This document shows positions 1 to 62,215 of a DNA stretch of 64,000 bases, piece after piece; within the stretch, counting starts at the first letter, position 1, and each line of letters starts with the position of its first letter. The notes beneath the pieces were generated by a model. That model was not told the DNA's origin, did not search any database, and saw only the letters and a list, made by a program, of their open reading frames with translations. The stretch lies in contig JAZBQD010000014.1 of NCBI GenBank assembly GCA_036583965.1, positions 48,055,126 through 48,119,125 on the forward strand, read 5' to 3'. Both the position numbers and the translations under genes were made by a program. This DNA comes from Prunella strophiata (Eukaryota; Chordata; Aves; Passeriformes; Prunellidae).

Positions 1-150
1 ATTTTCATTTTCCCTTTGTGACCAAAACTTCCGTAAAGCCGAGCCACTTCCAAACTGATAAAATCAAACCTTTCTTACCAATGCAATAAAACTCTTCATT
101 TTTCAAGGAGAGGTTTGAAAGGATTATAACTGTTTCTGTTCATTTTGCAG
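1..150 (+). other. MET: 3' end of MET intron 14
   Basis: AT-rich intron sequence ending in a pyrimidine-rich tract and an AG acceptor at 149-150. The upstream MET exons (Sema, PSI and IPT domains, transmembrane segment, and the exon 14 juxtamembrane segment with the CBL-binding tyrosine) lie outside the window. Confidence 0.85.
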
Positions 151-9338
<9,188 letters not shown>

Positions 9339-9944: not shown

Positions 9945-11705
9945 AGTAAGGAGTGGGTGAGAAAGGCCAAGAGAAAACTGGAACTGAACCTGGCAAGGCA
10001 TGCAAAGAATAACAGAAAAGGCTTCTACAGGTACGTTAATCAGAAAAGTAAGGCCAAAGAAGGTGTTTCCCCTTTGTTAAACAGTGCTGGTGGACAAGGA
10101 GAAGCCTGAGGTACTTAACTCTCTTTCCTCAGTCTTCAATGGCAACATTTCTTCCCACACCTCTTGAAAGGATGGACAACAGGATGAGGACTGGGACAGC
10201 AAAGCCCCTCCCACTGTAAGTGAAGACCAGGTTCTGACCACCCAGGGAACCTGAATGTGCACAAGTCTATGGGACCTGATGAAATATATCCCAGAGTCGT
10301 GAAGGAATTGGCTGATGCAGTTGCCAAGCTGCTCTCCATGATATTCAAAAAGTCATGGCAGTCAGGGAAAGTCCCAGGTGACTGGAAAAAGGGGAAGAGT
10401 GTACCTGTCTTTAAGAAGAGAACAAAGAACAACCTTGGGAACTACCAACCTGTCAGCCTCACCTCTGTGCCTGGGAATGTCATGGAACAGATCCTCCTAG
10501 AAGGCACATGGGGGACAGGGCAGTCCTTCACCAGGATTCAAGACACCAGCACAGCTTCTCCAAGGGCAAGTCCTACCTGACCAGCCTGGTGGCCTTCTAT
10601 GATGGAGTGACTACACCAGTGGACAAGGGGAGGTGTACAGTTGTCATTTATCTGGGCTTCTGTAAAGTTTTTGCCATGGCCCCCCACAACCTCCCCTCTG
10701 AACTGGAGAGAGATGGATTTGATGGGTGAACTGTTAGATGGATAAGAAGTTGTTTGGACAGTCACATCCAGAGGGTAGTGGTGACAAGTGGTGTCCCTCA
10801 GGGGTCTGCACTGGGACCAGGTGTTTTTTAATATCTTCATTAATGACACAGACAAAGGGCGCGAGTGCACACTCGGCAAATCTGCAGATGACACCAAGCT
10901 GAGTGGTGCAGTTGACTCACCTGAAGGATGGGATGCCATCCAGAGGCACCTGGACAAGCTCAAGAAGAAAGCTGGTGGAAATGCAATGAGTTTTAACAGG
11001 AGCAAGGGCAAGGTACTGCAGCTGGGTCAGGGCAAACCCCTGTATCACCACAGGTTTGGGGATGAACAGATCCAGAGCAGCCCTGCCAAGAAGGACTTGG
11101 GGTGCATGAGAGGCTGCACATGAGCAGGCAAAGTGCCCTCCCAGCCCAGAAAGCCAATTGTATCCTGGGCTGCATCACAAGCAGTGTGGCCAGCTGGTCA
11201 AGGGAGGGGATTCTGCCCCTTCTCCAGTGTGGTGAGACCCACCTGGAGTGCTGCATCCAGCTCTGGGGCCCCATCACAGGAAGGACATCAATCATCAGCC
11301 ATGATGATTAGAGAGCTGGAGCACCTCTCCAGTGGGGAAAGGCTGGGAGAATTGTTTAGCCTGGAAGAGAGAAGGCTTTGGGATGACTTAATTGCAACCT
11401 TCCAGTACCTGAAGGGAGCCTGCAGGAAAGATGGAACAAGACTATTTACAAAAGCATGTAGTGGACAGAACAAGGGGGAATGAGTTTAAACTAAAAGACA
11501 GTAGGTTTAAATTAGATATTGGGAGAAAATTCTTTACTGTGGGGGTGGTGACGCACTGGAACAGGTTGTCCAGGGAAGTTCGTGGATGCCCCATCCCTGG
11601 AATTTTCAACATTCATCAATGTACCCACAGCAGAGGGGCTGGAACTATAGTGATCTTCAAAGTCCCTTCCAATCTGGGCCATTCTATTCATATTCTGTGT
11701 CTTAC
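9945..11705 (+). mobile_element. CR1 LINE, 5'-truncated, reverse transcriptase remnant, sense
   Basis: Non-LTR retrotransposon fragment in the same direction as MET. Its frames together show CR1 ORF2 reverse transcriptase: [64 protein letters not shown], the catalytic box as SADDTKLSG (FADD in active elements), then the C-terminal part GETHLECCIQLWGPI and [19 protein letters not shown]. At least four frame changes and internal stops make it dead. The 3' end has the CR1 hallmark of short ATTCT repeats near 11680-11700. Confidence 0.93.
10257..11123 (+). pseudogene. CR1 ORF2 reverse transcriptase, inactivated
   Basis: Coding remnant of the CR1 element. Frame 1 (10257-10580) carries the RT N-terminal motifs. 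A second frame (10508-10729) continues through [20 protein letters not shown], and a third (10788-11123) carries the catalytic box. The Phe before the Ala-Asp-Asp is Ser here. The frameshifts rule out a working product. Confidence 0.85.
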
Positions 11706-13929: not shown

Positions 13930-14575
13930 ACAGCAGGCTGAACATGAGCCAATGTGTGCCCAGGTGGCCAAGAAGGCCAGTGGCATCCTGGCCTGGATCA
14001 GCAATAGTGTGGCCAACAGGACCAGGGTAGTGATTCCTTTCCTGTACTTGGCATTGGTGAGGCCACACCTTGAGTGCTGTGTCCAGTTCTGGGCCCCCCA
14101 ATTTAGGGAGGATGTTGAGAAGCTGGAGCATGTTCAGAGAAGGGCAACGAGGCTGGTGAAGGGTCTGGAACACAAGCCCTGTGAGGGGCAGCTGAGAGAG
14201 CTGGGGCTGTTTAGCCTGGAGAAGAGGAGGCTCAGGGGAGACCTTATCACTCTACAGCCACCTGAAAAGAGGCTCTAGCCAGGTGGGGTTGGCCTCTTCT
14301 CCCAGGTTGTCTCTTCTCCCAGAGACAGGACAAGAGGACACAGTCTTAAGCTGGGCCAGAGGAAGTTTAGGTTGGAAGAAGTTCTTCACAGAGAATGATT
14401 GGGTATTGGAGTGGGCTGCCCAGGAAGGTGGTGGAGTCACTGTCCCTGGAGGTGTTTTAGAAAAGACTGGATCAGGCACTCAGTGCCATGGTCTAGTTGA
14501 CAAAGTGGTGTTAGGTCATAGGTTAGACTCCATGATCTCAAAGATCTCCAACCTAGTTAATTCTGTGATTTCAAC
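13930..14575 (+). mobile_element. CR1 LINE 3' fragment, sense
   Basis: The C-terminal end of CR1 ORF2 is readable for about 100 codons (13952-14278) as [54 protein letters not shown] and [15 protein letters not shown]. The CR1 3' UTR follows, ending in 'gactccatgatctcaaagat' and a TTCTGTGATTT tail. It is less degraded than the copy in the MET UTR and is related to the fragment at about 32.2 kb by shared 3' sequence. Confidence 0.92.
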
Positions 14576-18297: not shown

Positions 18298-18332
<35 letters not shown>

Positions 18333-18346
18333 AAAAAAAAAAAAAA
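18298..18346. repeat. Poly-A tract
   Basis: 34 consecutive A, one C, then 14 A. It is long for a bird intergenic region, where poly-A-tailed retrocopies are rare. No convincing retrocopy was recognised immediately upstream. Confidence 0.95.
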
Positions 18347-23334: not shown

Positions 23335-23740
23335 TCTAGGCTGAGAGGGGGGTTGTTCAGCCTGGAGAAGACTCCAAGAGAGCTTTCAGCATCCTTCCAG
23401 TATCTGAACAGGCCTAAAGAAGAGCTGGAGAGGGACTTTTTACAAGGGTATGGAGTGACAAGAAAAGGGAGAATAGCTTTAAACTGAAAGAAGGTGGGTT
23501 TAGGTTAGATATCAGGAAGAAATTCTTTACTGTGAGGGTGGTGAGACAATGGAATGGGCTACCCAGAGAAGCTGTGGATGCCCCATCCCTACAAGTGCTG
23601 AAGGCCAGGCTGGATGGTGCCTTGAATAACCTGCTCTAGAGGAAAGTATCCCTGACCACTGCAGGGGCAGGCAAAGTGGGAGGAAAGGGTTCCACTAGGT
23701 GAACTTTAAGGTCTTTTCCAACCCAAGTTATAATCTTTAT
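23335..23740 (+). mobile_element. CR1 LINE 3' fragment, sense
   Basis: CR1 C-terminal coding remnant and 3' UTR. It holds 'ggttgttcagcctggagaag', 'aaattctttactgtgagggt', 'aatgggctacccagagaagc' and 'ggatgccccatccctacaag', and ends near 'gtcttttccaacccaagtta' and TATAATCTTTATAAT. Frameshifted and 5' truncated. Confidence 0.92.
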
Positions 23741-24600: not shown

Positions 24601-27600
24601 GCATCATACTTGCCCCTCTATACTAGATTAAAGTACATTCATTGTCAGGTTTTAAAATAGATTGCCTTAAACTACAAAAGAGACCCTAAAATTAAGGCTG
24701 TATATCCTGCAGCAGGAAAGGAAAGATTACAATCTCTATGCCAATTGCCTCAGATTCCCTTCTACCCTAAGGACTCATATTTCACTGGGGGTTTTTTGTA
24801 CCTATAGCCTGGTATCACTAATCTTTAATCCATAAAATATAGTGTCAGGCACGTCTCAGTTGACATTGTGCACACAGATGTGTGCAGCATGCACAGAAGT
24901 CAAGCACACATCCTTCAGACTTTGCAGCTTTATTCATCAGCTTCTCCCTCACATCAGGGGAACTACTCCATTGACATTCATTGAACACACTTCACTATTT
25001 GTTTTGGTTTCTCTTTTGTTTGTTTTGTTTTGTTTGGCCAAGAGAAATTCCTGTAAATGTTAAAACATAAAACCCTTGGTATGACATGGACCTGGTCCAT
25101 TTTAGTCCATTCCTCTCCACCCTGTGCCATGGGCAGGATCAGGCCCTTGCCACTGTCCTTCCCAGCCTCTGCCATGAGCAGGGCTGGTCACCAGCACATG
25201 ACCCCACCAGGCTGTCCACCATACACACAACAAAACCCCAATTTTGCCAGGTTTAGAGAGCTGCAACAGAATTTCGTTACTCAATCAGGGTTTATTAACA
25301 GATCATTTGAAAAATCCTTCCCTTCCCTGGAATACAGCCCACAACAAGAGACAGGCTGTATTGCATGGAAACTGTGAAGGGCAATGTGCTGTAAGGAAAA
25401 AAATGACATGAGATCTGCTTCCCTTTTCTCCCCACCCTCCCATTTCCCCACTCCTTTCCTAGGTGTTGTTTTTCTTCCCTGGCTCCCAGGAGAATTCCCA
25501 GCAGACAAGGCAGTGAGCAATGGTGGAATCAGCAGTCTGATGTGGCTCAGAGCAAAGGCTGTGACTAAAAGGAATGTAGAGCCAAACCCAGAAACAAGTG
25601 GCAATGAAGAGCTAAAACCACCAGAAATTAACACATACAGCTCCAGCCATCATGTACTGCACAAGGGGACAGCCAGAAAACCATGTGTGATGACACAAGT
25701 TGTATGAGGAAGCTGGACTCAGTTACAGCAGTTCTGTATGCAAGCTGAACCAGGTTTAGAAACAGCTCTTCATGTCATCATGTCAGCAAGCAGCACAGGA
25801 AGGCAGTGGTTCACCTGTGTCTTACCACCTTCACCATCTTTCCTTCTAGGTCTTTCATAGGTTATCAAACTCATCTTCTGCTACCATTAAATTCCAAGAA
25901 AACTCTGTCTTGTCCTGTGTTGCACCTAAAACATCTATAAAGTCACCTTGCCTCTCTTCTTCCCCCTTTCCCTAAAAATTACTTTTGAAGGCCACAAAAA
26001 TTTAAAGAACAAATAATGGGGAGACTAGGGAACCCTCTTCATCACTCTAGATGGTGTTACTTTACATATCTAGATATTCCACTTCTGCTTGTAGCTCTTC
26101 ATCACTTCATCCTACATATCACAACAGAGACATGAGACTTCTTTTTTTGCTGCATTTCCTGATCTGACATGAGAGACTAAAACCAGAACTTCAAAATCTT
26201 ACTGTGAGGAAGGAAGTGGAGCACAGTACTTGCACGAACAGATTGCAAAAGCCTGAGCTTACCATTTGGGAAGCATGTGCACCAGGCTTTTTCTCAGACT
26301 AATACTGATCCATATCAATCAGGGATATCATTATAGCACAGCAACAGGAATTAAAACAGGCACAGGTTTATTATTTATTGAGAACTGCAAATTCTCAATA
26401 ATTGCAATTCTCTAAAAATTGGAAAACTGAAAAAAAGCACATGTGGAACAAAACTTCATTCCCTTTCAGGATCAAAAGCATTTTCTTTGCTTCAAAATAG
26501 TTCATCTAGATATTAACATTTTTAGTGAGTTATTGTTTACTACCAAAATATAGTTACAGTTCTGAGGCTTTCCATTACTAGTTAGTCCATACAAAATGCT
26601 TTCTAAAGTGCCACAAAGAGGAAAAATTACAGCATTTTCACAAAGTATAATATTTATTGCTCTGTGCATTTCTTGAGCTTGGAGAAATGAAACTAGCAAA
26701 ATCAAACCTTTAATCTTTGTGTTACTTTTTTTCTGAGTTGCTCTTCTTATCCAAAAAATTACTTCTTGGGAGGTTGTTGAGGACTTTGTGGTGGAATGCA
26801 TTTTCTCTGGGTTTGCATGAGATGTTTGTCAATTGTCTTGATGACAGCTGAGGAAGAGCTATCCCTATAATGCAATTTACTGCAACAACAAAAAGTTATT
26901 TTCCCTTTTTACAAACTTCTCTGGAATAAACAGAATTGTTAATCTAATCAAAAACTCATTCCCATTGAGATAATCAACACTGGAAATCTTGGGGGAGGGG
27001 GTGCAAATTCTTCCTTTTAAACAATTGAATAAGGGTTTGTCAATATGAAGCCTATGAAATTGGTCACAGCTGAGTTCAAACAAGCTTTTGTTGATTAATA
27101 ATGCTTGTTTTGAACTTATTAACAATGGATAATTCCTGCACTAACTTTGTTATGCCTCTGATATTAATCTTACTCTTTGCAACAGACTTCTGTGCCATTA
27201 TAAACCAAATTAAGTGTAAAATTGAGGCCTCAGAATAAGAAAATGTAGGGGGTTTAAGTCCAACAAATTGAATGTTATCTTGGGACAATGTATAGTGATA
27301 TAAAACAGCATTCCCTCAGACACACTGTGTATTTATCTGTAACCTTCCTTGATTCCTGCTCATTTAATTTACCTGACCTTATCCACAGTCATCATCAACT
27401 TCAGGATCCATGTGGGTAAAATCTTGGCTCTCTTGCAGTCTCAAATTTTCTATGACAACAGAAAATTGAGAACAATGCAATTACTACAGTCATATATAGG
27501 ACTACTTTTCTAAAGTCAAATGGCAAGATAAATTCTCCAGTATCTTTTACATCTAATGGGGTTTCACTGAGATCCAGTGCAGTGTTAAGAAATGACAGAT

Positions 27601-32194: not shown

Positions 32195-32494
32195 TCTGAA
32201 GGCAGGCTGGGGCCAGGTGGGGGTCAGTCCCTTCTCCCAAGCAACCAGAGACAGGACAAGAGGACACAGCCCTCCGCTGGGCCAGGGGAGGTTTATTTTG
32301 GATGTTGGGAGGAATTTCTTCACTGAGGACGATTAGATATGGACATGGGCTGCCCAGGGAGGTGGGGGGGTTACTATCCCTGGAGCTGTTTAGAAGAAAC
32401 TGGATGTGGCATTGATGCCATGGTCTGTTGAACAGGTGGTGCTTGTCATAGGTTGGACTCGATGACCTCAGAAGTCTTTTCCAACTAAACTGAC
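32195..32494 (+). mobile_element. CR1 LINE 3' fragment, sense, next to the GC-rich repeat block
   Basis: CR1 3' end: 'agacaggacaagaggacaca', 'aggtttattttggatgttgg', 'atgggctgcccagggaggtg', then 'gtcataggttggactcgatg' and 'gtcttttccaactaaactga'. Same subfamily pattern as the 13.9-14.6 kb copy. It ends about 70 bp before the 47-bp minisatellite. Confidence 0.92.
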
Positions 32495-32566
32495 TTAGTG
32501 AGTTTCACTTCTGGCTGCCCACAACTCCAGTTGCTGTTCAAACTCTTCCAAGATACCCCAGTTTCC

Positions 32567-32696
32567 ATTCCCAACCCGCCCCTCTGCCCCAGGATCCCAT
32601 CCCATCATTTCCCATTCCCAACCCGCCCCTCCACCCCGGGATCCCATCCCATCATTTCCCATTCCCAACCCGCCCCTCCCACCCCGGAGCCCATCC
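32567..32696. repeat. 47-bp minisatellite, 2.8 copies
   Basis: Copies begin at 32567, 32614 and 32661 with ATTCCCAACCCGCCCCT. Each runs through a CCCC(A/G)GGATCCCATCCC block and CATCATTTCCC. The third is cut off where the GGGGCC array begins. C-rich on the plus strand. Confidence 0.93.
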
Positions 32697-34974
32697 GGGC
32701 CGGGGCCGGGGCCGGGGCCGGGGCCGGGGCCGGGGCCGGGGCCGGGGCCGGGGCCGGGGCCGGGGCCGGGGCCGGGGCCGGGGCCGGGGCCGGGGCCGGG
32801 GCCGGGGCCGGGGCCGGGGCCGGGGCCGGGGCCGGGGCCGGGGCCGGGGCCGGGGCCGGGGCCGGGGCCGGGGCCGGGGCCGGGGCCGGGGCCGGGGCCG
32901 GGGCCGGGGCCGGGGCCGGGGCCGGGGCCGGGGCCGGGGCCGGGGCCGGGGCCGGGGCCGGGGCCGGGGCCGGGGCCGGGGCCGGGGCCGGGGCCGGGGC
33001 CGGGGCCGGGGCCGGGGCCGGGGCCGGGGCCGGGGCCGGGGCCGGGGCCGGGGCCGGGGCCGGGGCCGGGGCCGGGGCCGGGGCCGGGGCCGGGGCCGGG
33101 GCCGGGGCCGGGGCCGGGGCCGGGGCCGGGGCCGGGGCCGGGGCCGGGGCCGGGGCCGGGGCCGGGGCCGGGGCCGGGGCCGGGGCCGGGGCCGGGGCCG
33201 GGGCCGGGGCCGGGGCCGGGGCCGGGGCCGGGGCCGGGGCCGGGGCCGGGGCCGGGGCCGGGGCCGGGGCCGGGGCCGGGGCCGGGGCCGGGGCCGGGGC
33301 CGGGGCCGGGGCCGGGGCCGGGGCCGGGGCCGGGGCCGGGGCCGGGGCCGGGGCCGGGGCCGGGGCCGGGGCCGGGGCCGGGGCCGGGGCCGGGGCCGGG
33401 GCCGGGGCCGGGGCCGGGGCCGGGGCCGGGGCCGGGGCCGGGGCCGGGGCCGGGGCCGGGGCCGGGGCCGGGGCCGGGGCCGGGGCCGGGGCCGGGGCCG
33501 GGGCCGGGGCCGGGGCCGGGGCCGGGGCCGGGGCCGGGGCCGGGGCCGGGGCCGGGGCCGGGGCCGGGGCCGGGGCCGGGGCCGGGGCCGGGGCCGGGGC
33601 CGGGGCCGGGGCCGGGGCCGGGGCCGGGGCCGGGGCCGGGGCCGGGGCCGGGGCCGGGGCCGGGGCCGGGGCCGGGGCCGGGGCCGGGGCCGGGGCCGGG
33701 GCCGGGGCCGGGGCCGGGGCCGGGGCCGGGGCCGGGGCCGGGGCCGGGGCCGGGGCCGGGGCCGGGGCCGGGGCCGGGGCCGGGGCCGGGGCCGGGGCCG
33801 GGGCCGGGGCCGGGGCCGGGGCCGGGGCCGGGGCCGGGGCCGGGGCCGGGGCCGGGGCCGGGGCCGGGGCCGGGGCCGGGGCCGGGGCCGGGGCCGGGGC
33901 CGGGGCCGGGGCCGGGGCCGGGGCCGGGGCCGGGGCCGGGGCCGGGGCCGGGGCCGGGGCCGGGGCCGGGGCCGGGGCCGGGGCCGGGGCCGGGGCCGGG
34001 GCCGGGGCCGGGGCCGGGGCCGGGGCCGGGGCCGGGGCCGGGGCCGGGGCCGGGGCCGGGGCCGGGGCCGGGGCCGGGGCCGGGGCCGGGGCCGGGGCCG
34101 GGGCCGGGGCCGGGGCCGGGGCCGGGGCCGGGGCCGGGGCCGGGGCCGGGGCCGGGGCCGGGGCCGGGGCCGGGGCCGGGGCCGGGGCCGGGGCCGGGGC
34201 CGGGGCCGGGGCCGGGGCCGGGGCCGGGGCCGGGGCCGGGGCCGGGGCCGGGGCCGGGGCCGGGGCCGGGGCCGGGGCCGGGGCCGGGGCCGGGGCCGGG
34301 GCCGGGGCCGGGGCCGGGGCCGGGGCCGGGGCCGGGGCCGGGGCCGGGGCCGGGGCCGGGGCCGGGGCCGGGGCCGGGGCCGGGGCCGGGGCCGGGGCCG
34401 GGGCCGGGGCCGGGGCCGGGGCCGGGGCCGGGGCCGGGGCCGGGGCCGGGGCCGGGGCCGGGGCCGGGGCCGGGGCCGGGGCCGGGGCCGGGGCCGGGGC
34501 CGGGGCCGGGGCCGGGGCCGGGGCCGGGGCCGGGGCCGGGGCCGGGGCCGGGGCCGGGGCCGGGGCCGGGGCCGGGGCCGGGGCCGGGGCCGGGGCCGGG
34601 GCCGGGGCCGGGGCCGGGGCCGGGGCCGGGGCCGGGGCCGGGGCCGGGGCCGGGGCCGGGGCCGGGGCCGGGGCCGGGGCCGGGGCCGGGGCCGGGGCCG
34701 GGGCCGGGGCCGGGGCCGGGGCCGGGGCCGGGGCCGGGGCCGGGGCCGGGGCCGGGGCCGGGGCCGGGGCCGGGGCCGGGGCCGGGGCCGGGGCCGGGGC
34801 CGGGGCCGGGGCCGGGGCCGGGGCCGGGGCCGGGGCCGGGGCCGGGGCCGGGGCCGGGGCCGGGGCCGGGGCCGGGGCCGGGGCCGGGGCCGGGGCCGGG
34901 GCCGGGGCCGGGGCCGGGGCCGGGGCCGGGGCCGGGGCCGGGGCCGGGGCCGGGGCCGGGGCCGGGGCCGGGGC
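32697..34974. repeat. (GGGGCC)n hexanucleotide array, 378 uninterrupted units
   Basis: Full GGGGCC units run from 32702 to 34969 (2,268 bp, 378 units), with a five-base partial unit on each side. I saw no interruption in any line. Every unit holds one CpG, one CCGG and one GGCC site, and a G4 run on the plus strand. The plus strand is the sense strand of MET and CAPZA2. No frame on either strand contains a stop: the plus strand reads Gly-Ala, Gly-Pro or Gly-Arg, and the minus strand Pro-Ala, Gly-Pro or Pro-Arg. The motif is that of the human C9orf72 ALS/FTD expansion. It is either a true bird-lineage expansion or an assembly artefact, and purity alone cannot decide. Confidence 0.98.
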
Positions 34975-35290
34975 AGGGCCGGGCCGGCCGGGCCGCATCT
35001 CCCGCCGCGCCCTGTCCGGAGCGGGGCCGGCGGCGCCCGGGGCCCGGCGGGCGCTCTGGCGGTCCCCGCGGCCGCCCCCGCCCGGCGTGCGGGGCGCGGG
35101 GACGGCACGGAGAGGCAGGAGAGACGCGGAAGGGCTCTCCCTTCCCCCACCGCCACTTCCCGTTGCCGAGGCGCCGTGCCCCTGCCAGCCGGCTGCTCCG
35201 AAGCACCCGGGCTGCCGTCCGCAGGCAGCCCCGCGGGCTCCGGGAGGAGGTGGGATGCATGTGATTTACGAGAGGAAGGAGCCGTGGGAA
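34975..35290 (+). promoter_or_regulatory. CpG-island-like flank, candidate CAPZA2 promoter / 5' end
   Basis: About 300 bp of unique, very GC-rich sequence directly 3' of the hexanucleotide array. It starts with imperfect GGGCC variants, then has many CpGs (around 34990-35120 especially). GC falls sharply after 35300. Apart from the adjoining array, this is the only such region in the window, and it lies upstream of CAPZA2 exon 2, which makes it the best promoter candidate. The first coding exon of CAPZA2 (about 13 codons) was not found in it. The strand and promoter role are inferred. Confidence 0.55.
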
Positions 35291-36034
35291 TGAGGAAGGC
35301 TGTTTTGCTTCCTGCTAGGAGGCAGTAATTGGGGAAGTGTGAGGTCAAGGAGCAGAGGGACTGTGTTAGAGATGCACCATGTACTCTTTTTGTGGCAGTG
35401 GGAAACTCAAATTTAAGGCAGATTTTTCCAGAAAAGTCTAAAAAGCAGCAGGATGTTATATGAGACCTCAGTTATCACTGCTCCTTGTCATCCTCTGGGG
35501 GATCCAGCTTCATAGCAGCTGCCTGTTTAATAAGCTAGGGTGTGGTGTTTTGTGTACATGGTGCACTACTCCTGCCTTTATGTAATGCTCTTGCTCACTT
35601 TCCCCTTTAAAAACTTACATTTTCGTGTCTGTGGAAGTTGTGACATGACTCAAATGTGGAAGGCATCAAAAATGATGTTTCAAACTTATTTAAAGTTAGA
35701 AGGATGTCTAAAATATCTAAGTGGTTACAGTAAGACAGATTTTCTGTTTGACCCTGTTTTATAAGTAGAGATGCACTGATATGCCTGGGAGTGCATAGCA
35801 CCTCGGATCTTGCTATCCTCTTCCCAAGAGGGCTTGAAGACTCTGCCTTCCTCTACCTAAATCACATTTCAATGCCACCTCTCTGTTGATACAAGTAGTA
35901 ATGTGATCCAGAAGCATAAGTGGTAATTGTGTTTTTTCTAGCCCCTTATAGGAAATACACGTAACACTAGTCAAGTACATTGTTCCAGAAGGTATGCTGA
36001 AAATACTTTGACTACAGGTTATCTTGCCATCACT

Positions 36035-47258: not shown

Positions 47259-62215
<14,957 letters not shown>

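Follow-up and report, generated by a model that had tools for sequence, protein, structure and literature searches.

The window analysed here, a 64,000-nucleotide stretch of Prunella strophiata DNA, carries the 3' part of MET with its kinase exons and, downstream on the same strand, nine exons of CAPZA2 (called exons 2-10), with a long GGGGCC array lying between the two genes (Table 1). The 170 residues encoded by the last three MET exons matched 40 distinct solved sequences with E values of up to 1e-60; 39 of these carry the name hepatocyte growth factor receptor (MET) and one that of macrophage-stimulating protein receptor. Joined together, the nine CAPZA2 exons form one open frame of 273 residues, which matches capping protein alpha chains; in complete alpha-1 chains the alignment runs from residue 14 to residue 286, leaving just the first 13 residues unmatched.

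Table 1. Features of the MET-CAPZA2 window, with positions counted from its first letter.
Feature	Position	Strand	Basis or remark
MET 3' part, kinase exons	1-9338	+	stop codon ends at 9338
Only CpG island found; inferred CAPZA2 promoter	32521-35370		sliding-window scan
47-bp minisatellite, three copies, directly left of the array	32559-32699		repeat search
Exact period-6 tract, with (GGGGCC)378 at 32702-34969	32697-34974	+	letters, Tandem Repeats Finder
Degenerate right edge (GGGCC and GGCC units), then ordinary GC-rich DNA	34975-34995	+	letters
Nine CAPZA2 exons (exons 2-10), residues 14-286	47310-62215	+	AG/GT at each junction, terminal stop codon

Direct reading of the letters gives 378 perfect GGGGCC units with zero interruptions between 32,702 and 34,969, inside a maximal exact period-6 tract of 2,278 bp. 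The motif, count and purity reported in the initial annotation are thereby confirmed, and its limits of 32,697 to 34,974 coincide with those of this maximal tract. Tandem Repeats Finder returned a period of 6 with 382.2 copies and 99% matches over 32,697-34,987, the extra copies representing the degenerate right edge, where the array decays through GGGGCA, GGGCC, GGGCC, GGCC and GGGCC before giving way to ordinary GC-rich DNA. On the left the array begins abruptly, next to the 47-bp minisatellite, which is C-rich and has its third copy altered at the start of the GGGGCC units. A chance origin of the array is ruled out by the length over which the periodicity is exact. Among 93 prokaryotic and viral loci that were chosen for holding at least 8 pure units, and that gauge rarity within those collections only, the longest pure GGGGCC run was 26 units.

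Other repeats occur in the window. An interspersed repeat at 32,196-32,470 ends about 230 bp to the left of the array and shows 74% identity, over 288 aligned bases, with 14,262-14,540. This repeat presumably resembles a CR1 3' end, and open reading frames at 10,224-11,120 and 13,931-14,278 are likewise taken to resemble remains of a CR1-type reverse transcriptase. Three open reading frames of putative CR1 type matched 0 Pfam families, so the CR1 label is tentative. Both these putative retroelement remains and the order of the genes are consistent with a bird genome. Two further repeat pairs join 11,394-11,598 with 23,389-23,590 and 14,126-14,374 with 24,251-24,011, and an A-run (48 of 49 bases A) occupies 18,298-18,346.

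A sliding-window scan of the 64 kb found a single CpG island, most of which is the array itself; with the array subtracted, about 176 bp of island are left on its left side and 396 bp on its right side. Cumulative GC skew calculated with the array left out reached its minimum at 35,232, rose through most of CAPZA2 and reached its maximum at 59,909; when 500-bp blocks were shuffled, 1 of 5000 permutations attained this range. Such a skew pattern is the usual mark of rightward transcription starting near the minimum. Given that this is the sole island, that the skew switches there, and that MET lies upstream and CAPZA2 downstream on the same strand, the inferred role of the island is that of CAPZA2 promoter and not of neutral intergenic DNA, with the array within it and GGGGCC on the sense strand. 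The CpG-rich setting and the sense orientation in the initial annotation agree with these results. Its placement of the array between MET and CAPZA2 is right about both flanks and imprecise otherwise, overlooking the only CpG island and likely promoter of the window as well as the absence of CAPZA2 exon 1.

Searches of both strands of the 64-kb window did not recover CAPZA2 exon 1, the coding exon that would supply the first 13 codons. We take the protein to start with MADLEEQLSDEEK, encoded by this single short exon. The chain deposited as 1izn, presumably that of chicken, begins MADFEDRVSDEEK, ahead of where the CAPZA2 product of the window starts. A protein-scale six-frame search for this exon reached at best 21/63 on the + strand (position 4,536, inside MET) and 20/63 on the − strand, and a degenerate DNA search left at best 12 mismatches out of 39 on either strand. 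The same DNA search placed each of three control exons at its proper position with 0 mismatches. When indels were allowed, the best matches required 8 edits on the + strand (at 25,401) and 7 edits on the − strand (at 1,093), the latter being one below the 8-10 edits obtained in 20 shuffles. This 7-edit match was rejected as exon 1, being on the wrong strand and inside MET. The + strand of the island contains three ATGs, none with a plausible donor or first exon, and two phase-0 GT sites, neither of them donor-like; the island shows no candidate for a replacement first coding exon. In the remaining CAPZA2 product of 273 residues, the first methionine comes at residue 115. The failure to find exon 1, combined with the lack of an earlier methionine, indicates that something needed by a working gene has been replaced or lost, and the spot where exon 1 most likely belongs is occupied by the array.

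Because exon 1 is missing at its own site, the array is more likely an assembly error than a tolerated giant repeat. We consider it probable that the length and purity of the array and the loss of exon 1 are together an assembly product, built on a real and probably smaller GGGGCC/GGGCC stretch. The initial annotation had suggested that the array, if real, is a naturally occurring tract tolerated by the species; this suggestion stays conjectural, and the missing exon counts against a faithful sequence here. Two signs of assembly error were looked for at the locus: a conserved first exon is indeed absent with the other exons intact, and the site is indeed a CpG island, with its identity as the CAPZA2 promoter being our reading of the island. 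The route by which assembly would have produced the array and the real length of the tract are both matters that we infer. A GC-rich stretch of the CAPZA2 promoter island that carries GGGGCC/GGGCC units would have been assembled unfaithfully, its real repeat tract being extended or used as a bridge during assembly, and CAPZA2 exon 1 would have been lost in the same process along with much unique island sequence. Possible routes would include a walk round a repeat loop in the assembly graph, a false overlap of reads lying wholly inside the repeat, or miscalling of the repeat followed by polishing.

Published observations describe several of the ingredients of such an error. In the bird and platypus assemblies covered by Kim et al. 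2022 (PMC9516821), earlier versions are reported to have lacked 40-70% of transcription-start-site sequence, with a similarly high missing share in the 5' UTR and first exon, and Rhie et al. 2021 (PMC8081667) describe earlier assemblies without GC-rich promoters. As stated in the Pilon paper (PMC4237348), tandem repeats longer than k produce loops in the local graph, short reads do not clearly give the copy number, and Pilon itself declines to close such loops; a loop here may have been walked by a gap filler other than Pilon. Nanopore sequencing is described as miscalling six-base repeats as five- or seven-base ones in PMC9414165, the main text of which does not contain GGGGCC.

Counterpoints to an assembly error exist. 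The letters alone hold no proof of a false join, the window is without an N run (N count of 0), the degenerate right edge resembles a natural array boundary, and losing exon 1 does not require an invented array. The array and the exon loss could even both be real, the array having expanded and the canonical CAPZA2 exon 1 having been deleted or replaced, for example through recombination between two GGGGCC tracts flanking it, so that the gene would use another first exon or would not be expressed. The intactness of the nine remaining exons and the failure to find the canonical first one fit such an event, but the ATGs and GT sites of the island offer no alternative first coding exon, and the loss of a start in a conserved gene needs strong evidence; we regard this double event as highly improbable.

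The perfection of the array bears both on assembly error and on a real expansion. For a known C9orf72 expansion, Ebbert et al. 2018 (PMC6102925) report a patient consensus of 95.7% G4C2, with 4.3% called G3C2. In the same report, the PacBio consensus of plasmid C9-774 was about 99.8% accurate, and the median read error on plasmid was 7.4% for PacBio and 47.3% for nanopore. G3C2 is described there as hard to separate from G4C2, which makes the G3C2 reading unreliable, and the authors' estimate of the true content is more than 99%, perhaps 100%, G4C2. The letter-perfect 378 units in the window are cleaner than the data described in that report. They have the appearance of a walk through the graph or of a highly regular consensus, and it is possible that accurate recent reads of a young real array could give the same perfect consensus. 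Newer reads are more accurate. Taking a rate of 2e-9 per site per year together with a CpG factor of 1 to 10, both of them assumptions, one substitution would be expected in the array per 220,000-55,000 years. About 2.3 kb without a substitution therefore means that a real array must be young or steadily homogenised.

What the array could do as RNA was assessed by folding. In the model, 16 units of the sense strand reached −149.4 kcal/mol with G-quadruplex (G4) formation versus −72.3 kcal/mol without the G4 option, and the antisense strand gave −61.0 kcal/mol both with and without it, a gain of zero. If the array is real, its sense RNA would thus be strongly G4-prone according to this model. 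No Rfam family matched at the gathering threshold (0 matches in the 64-kb window). All six reading frames are open through the array because the GGGGCC unit contains no stop. Upstream of the array, CTG or GTG is present and ATG is absent in the three + frames; on the − strand, an ATG precedes the antisense array in two frames out of three, at 35,260 and 34,998. A coding role was set aside, since open frames are expected of any stop-free repeat and are meaningless without a transcript.

The alternative of a real and almost pure GGGGCC array, expanded to hundreds of units in the promoter or first intron of CAPZA2, with the assembly having lost only the adjacent exon 1, has to be weighed against this background. 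The array is gapless, is bordered by non-repeat DNA on both sides and decays on its right in a natural-looking manner; the predicted folding strongly favours G4 on the sense strand, the purity fits a young age, and the C9orf72 motif at a promoter or intron 1, as described in PMC5822839, is a precedent for a promoter-island site. However, the failure to find exon 1 makes it probable that the sequence here is at least partly wrong, and a substitution-free 2.3 kb demands recent growth or homogenisation. We therefore hold such an expansion to be a less probable, tentative reading. Were it correct, G-quadruplexes and R-loops would be expected from the sense GGGGCC transcript, and the array would be either silenced by methylation or tolerated. 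That a vertebrate tolerates a real pure GGGGCC tract of hundreds of units in the promoter or first intron of the conserved gene CAPZA2, in an orientation and setting like those of human C9orf72, is doubtful.

The locus can be set beside known systems. The likeness to the C9orf72 expansion of ALS/FTD lies in the GGGGCC hexanucleotide, its hundreds of units, the sense strand and a CpG-rich setting that may correspond to a promoter or first intron. In the account given by PMC5822839, the human repeat sits in the core promoter of one C9orf72 transcript and in intron 1 of others, and normal alleles have 3-30 units; the 378 units as written are well above this range. By contrast with C9orf72, the gene here is CAPZA2, the flanks are MET and CAPZA2, and any transcription, RNA foci, dipeptide-repeat proteins, reduced expression, methylation, somatic instability or disease would be hypothetical; with exon 1 missing, the promoter, the 5' UTR and an intron are all candidate positions for the array. 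Among the matches listed for GGGGCC in combination with birds, zebra finch, CAPZA2 and genome assembly, titles and the starts of abstracts contain no report of this array, and the main text of an avian promoter repeat survey (PMC4725869) mentions neither GGGGCC nor CAPZA2. The false losses of 5' exons and promoters described in PMC9516821 and PMC8081667 share with this locus a CpG island, a missing first exon and intact downstream exons; unlike those cases, in which sequence is described as missing or replaced by a gap, the place here is filled by a perfect tandem array. The locus is best described as a tract of GC-rich repeat at a gene start that lies in a CpG island, and the giant length of the tract is putative. 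Expansions of the FMR1 CGG type are GC-rich repeats of a promoter or 5' UTR. They resemble the array in being GC-only repeats at a CpG-island gene start and differ from it in having a three-base unit instead of six bases, the array here and any instability of it being putative.

If the array is an artefact, which is more likely, the hardest promoters could be replaced by a perfect repeat without any gap mark, and such replacement would be a source both of false repeat expansions and of false first-exon losses. The missing exon offers a cheap test for this, and the 378 units are not to be read at face value. A real array would provide a natural example of a long GGGGCC tract where a gene begins, and with it a means of studying how cells prevent such tracts from doing harm.
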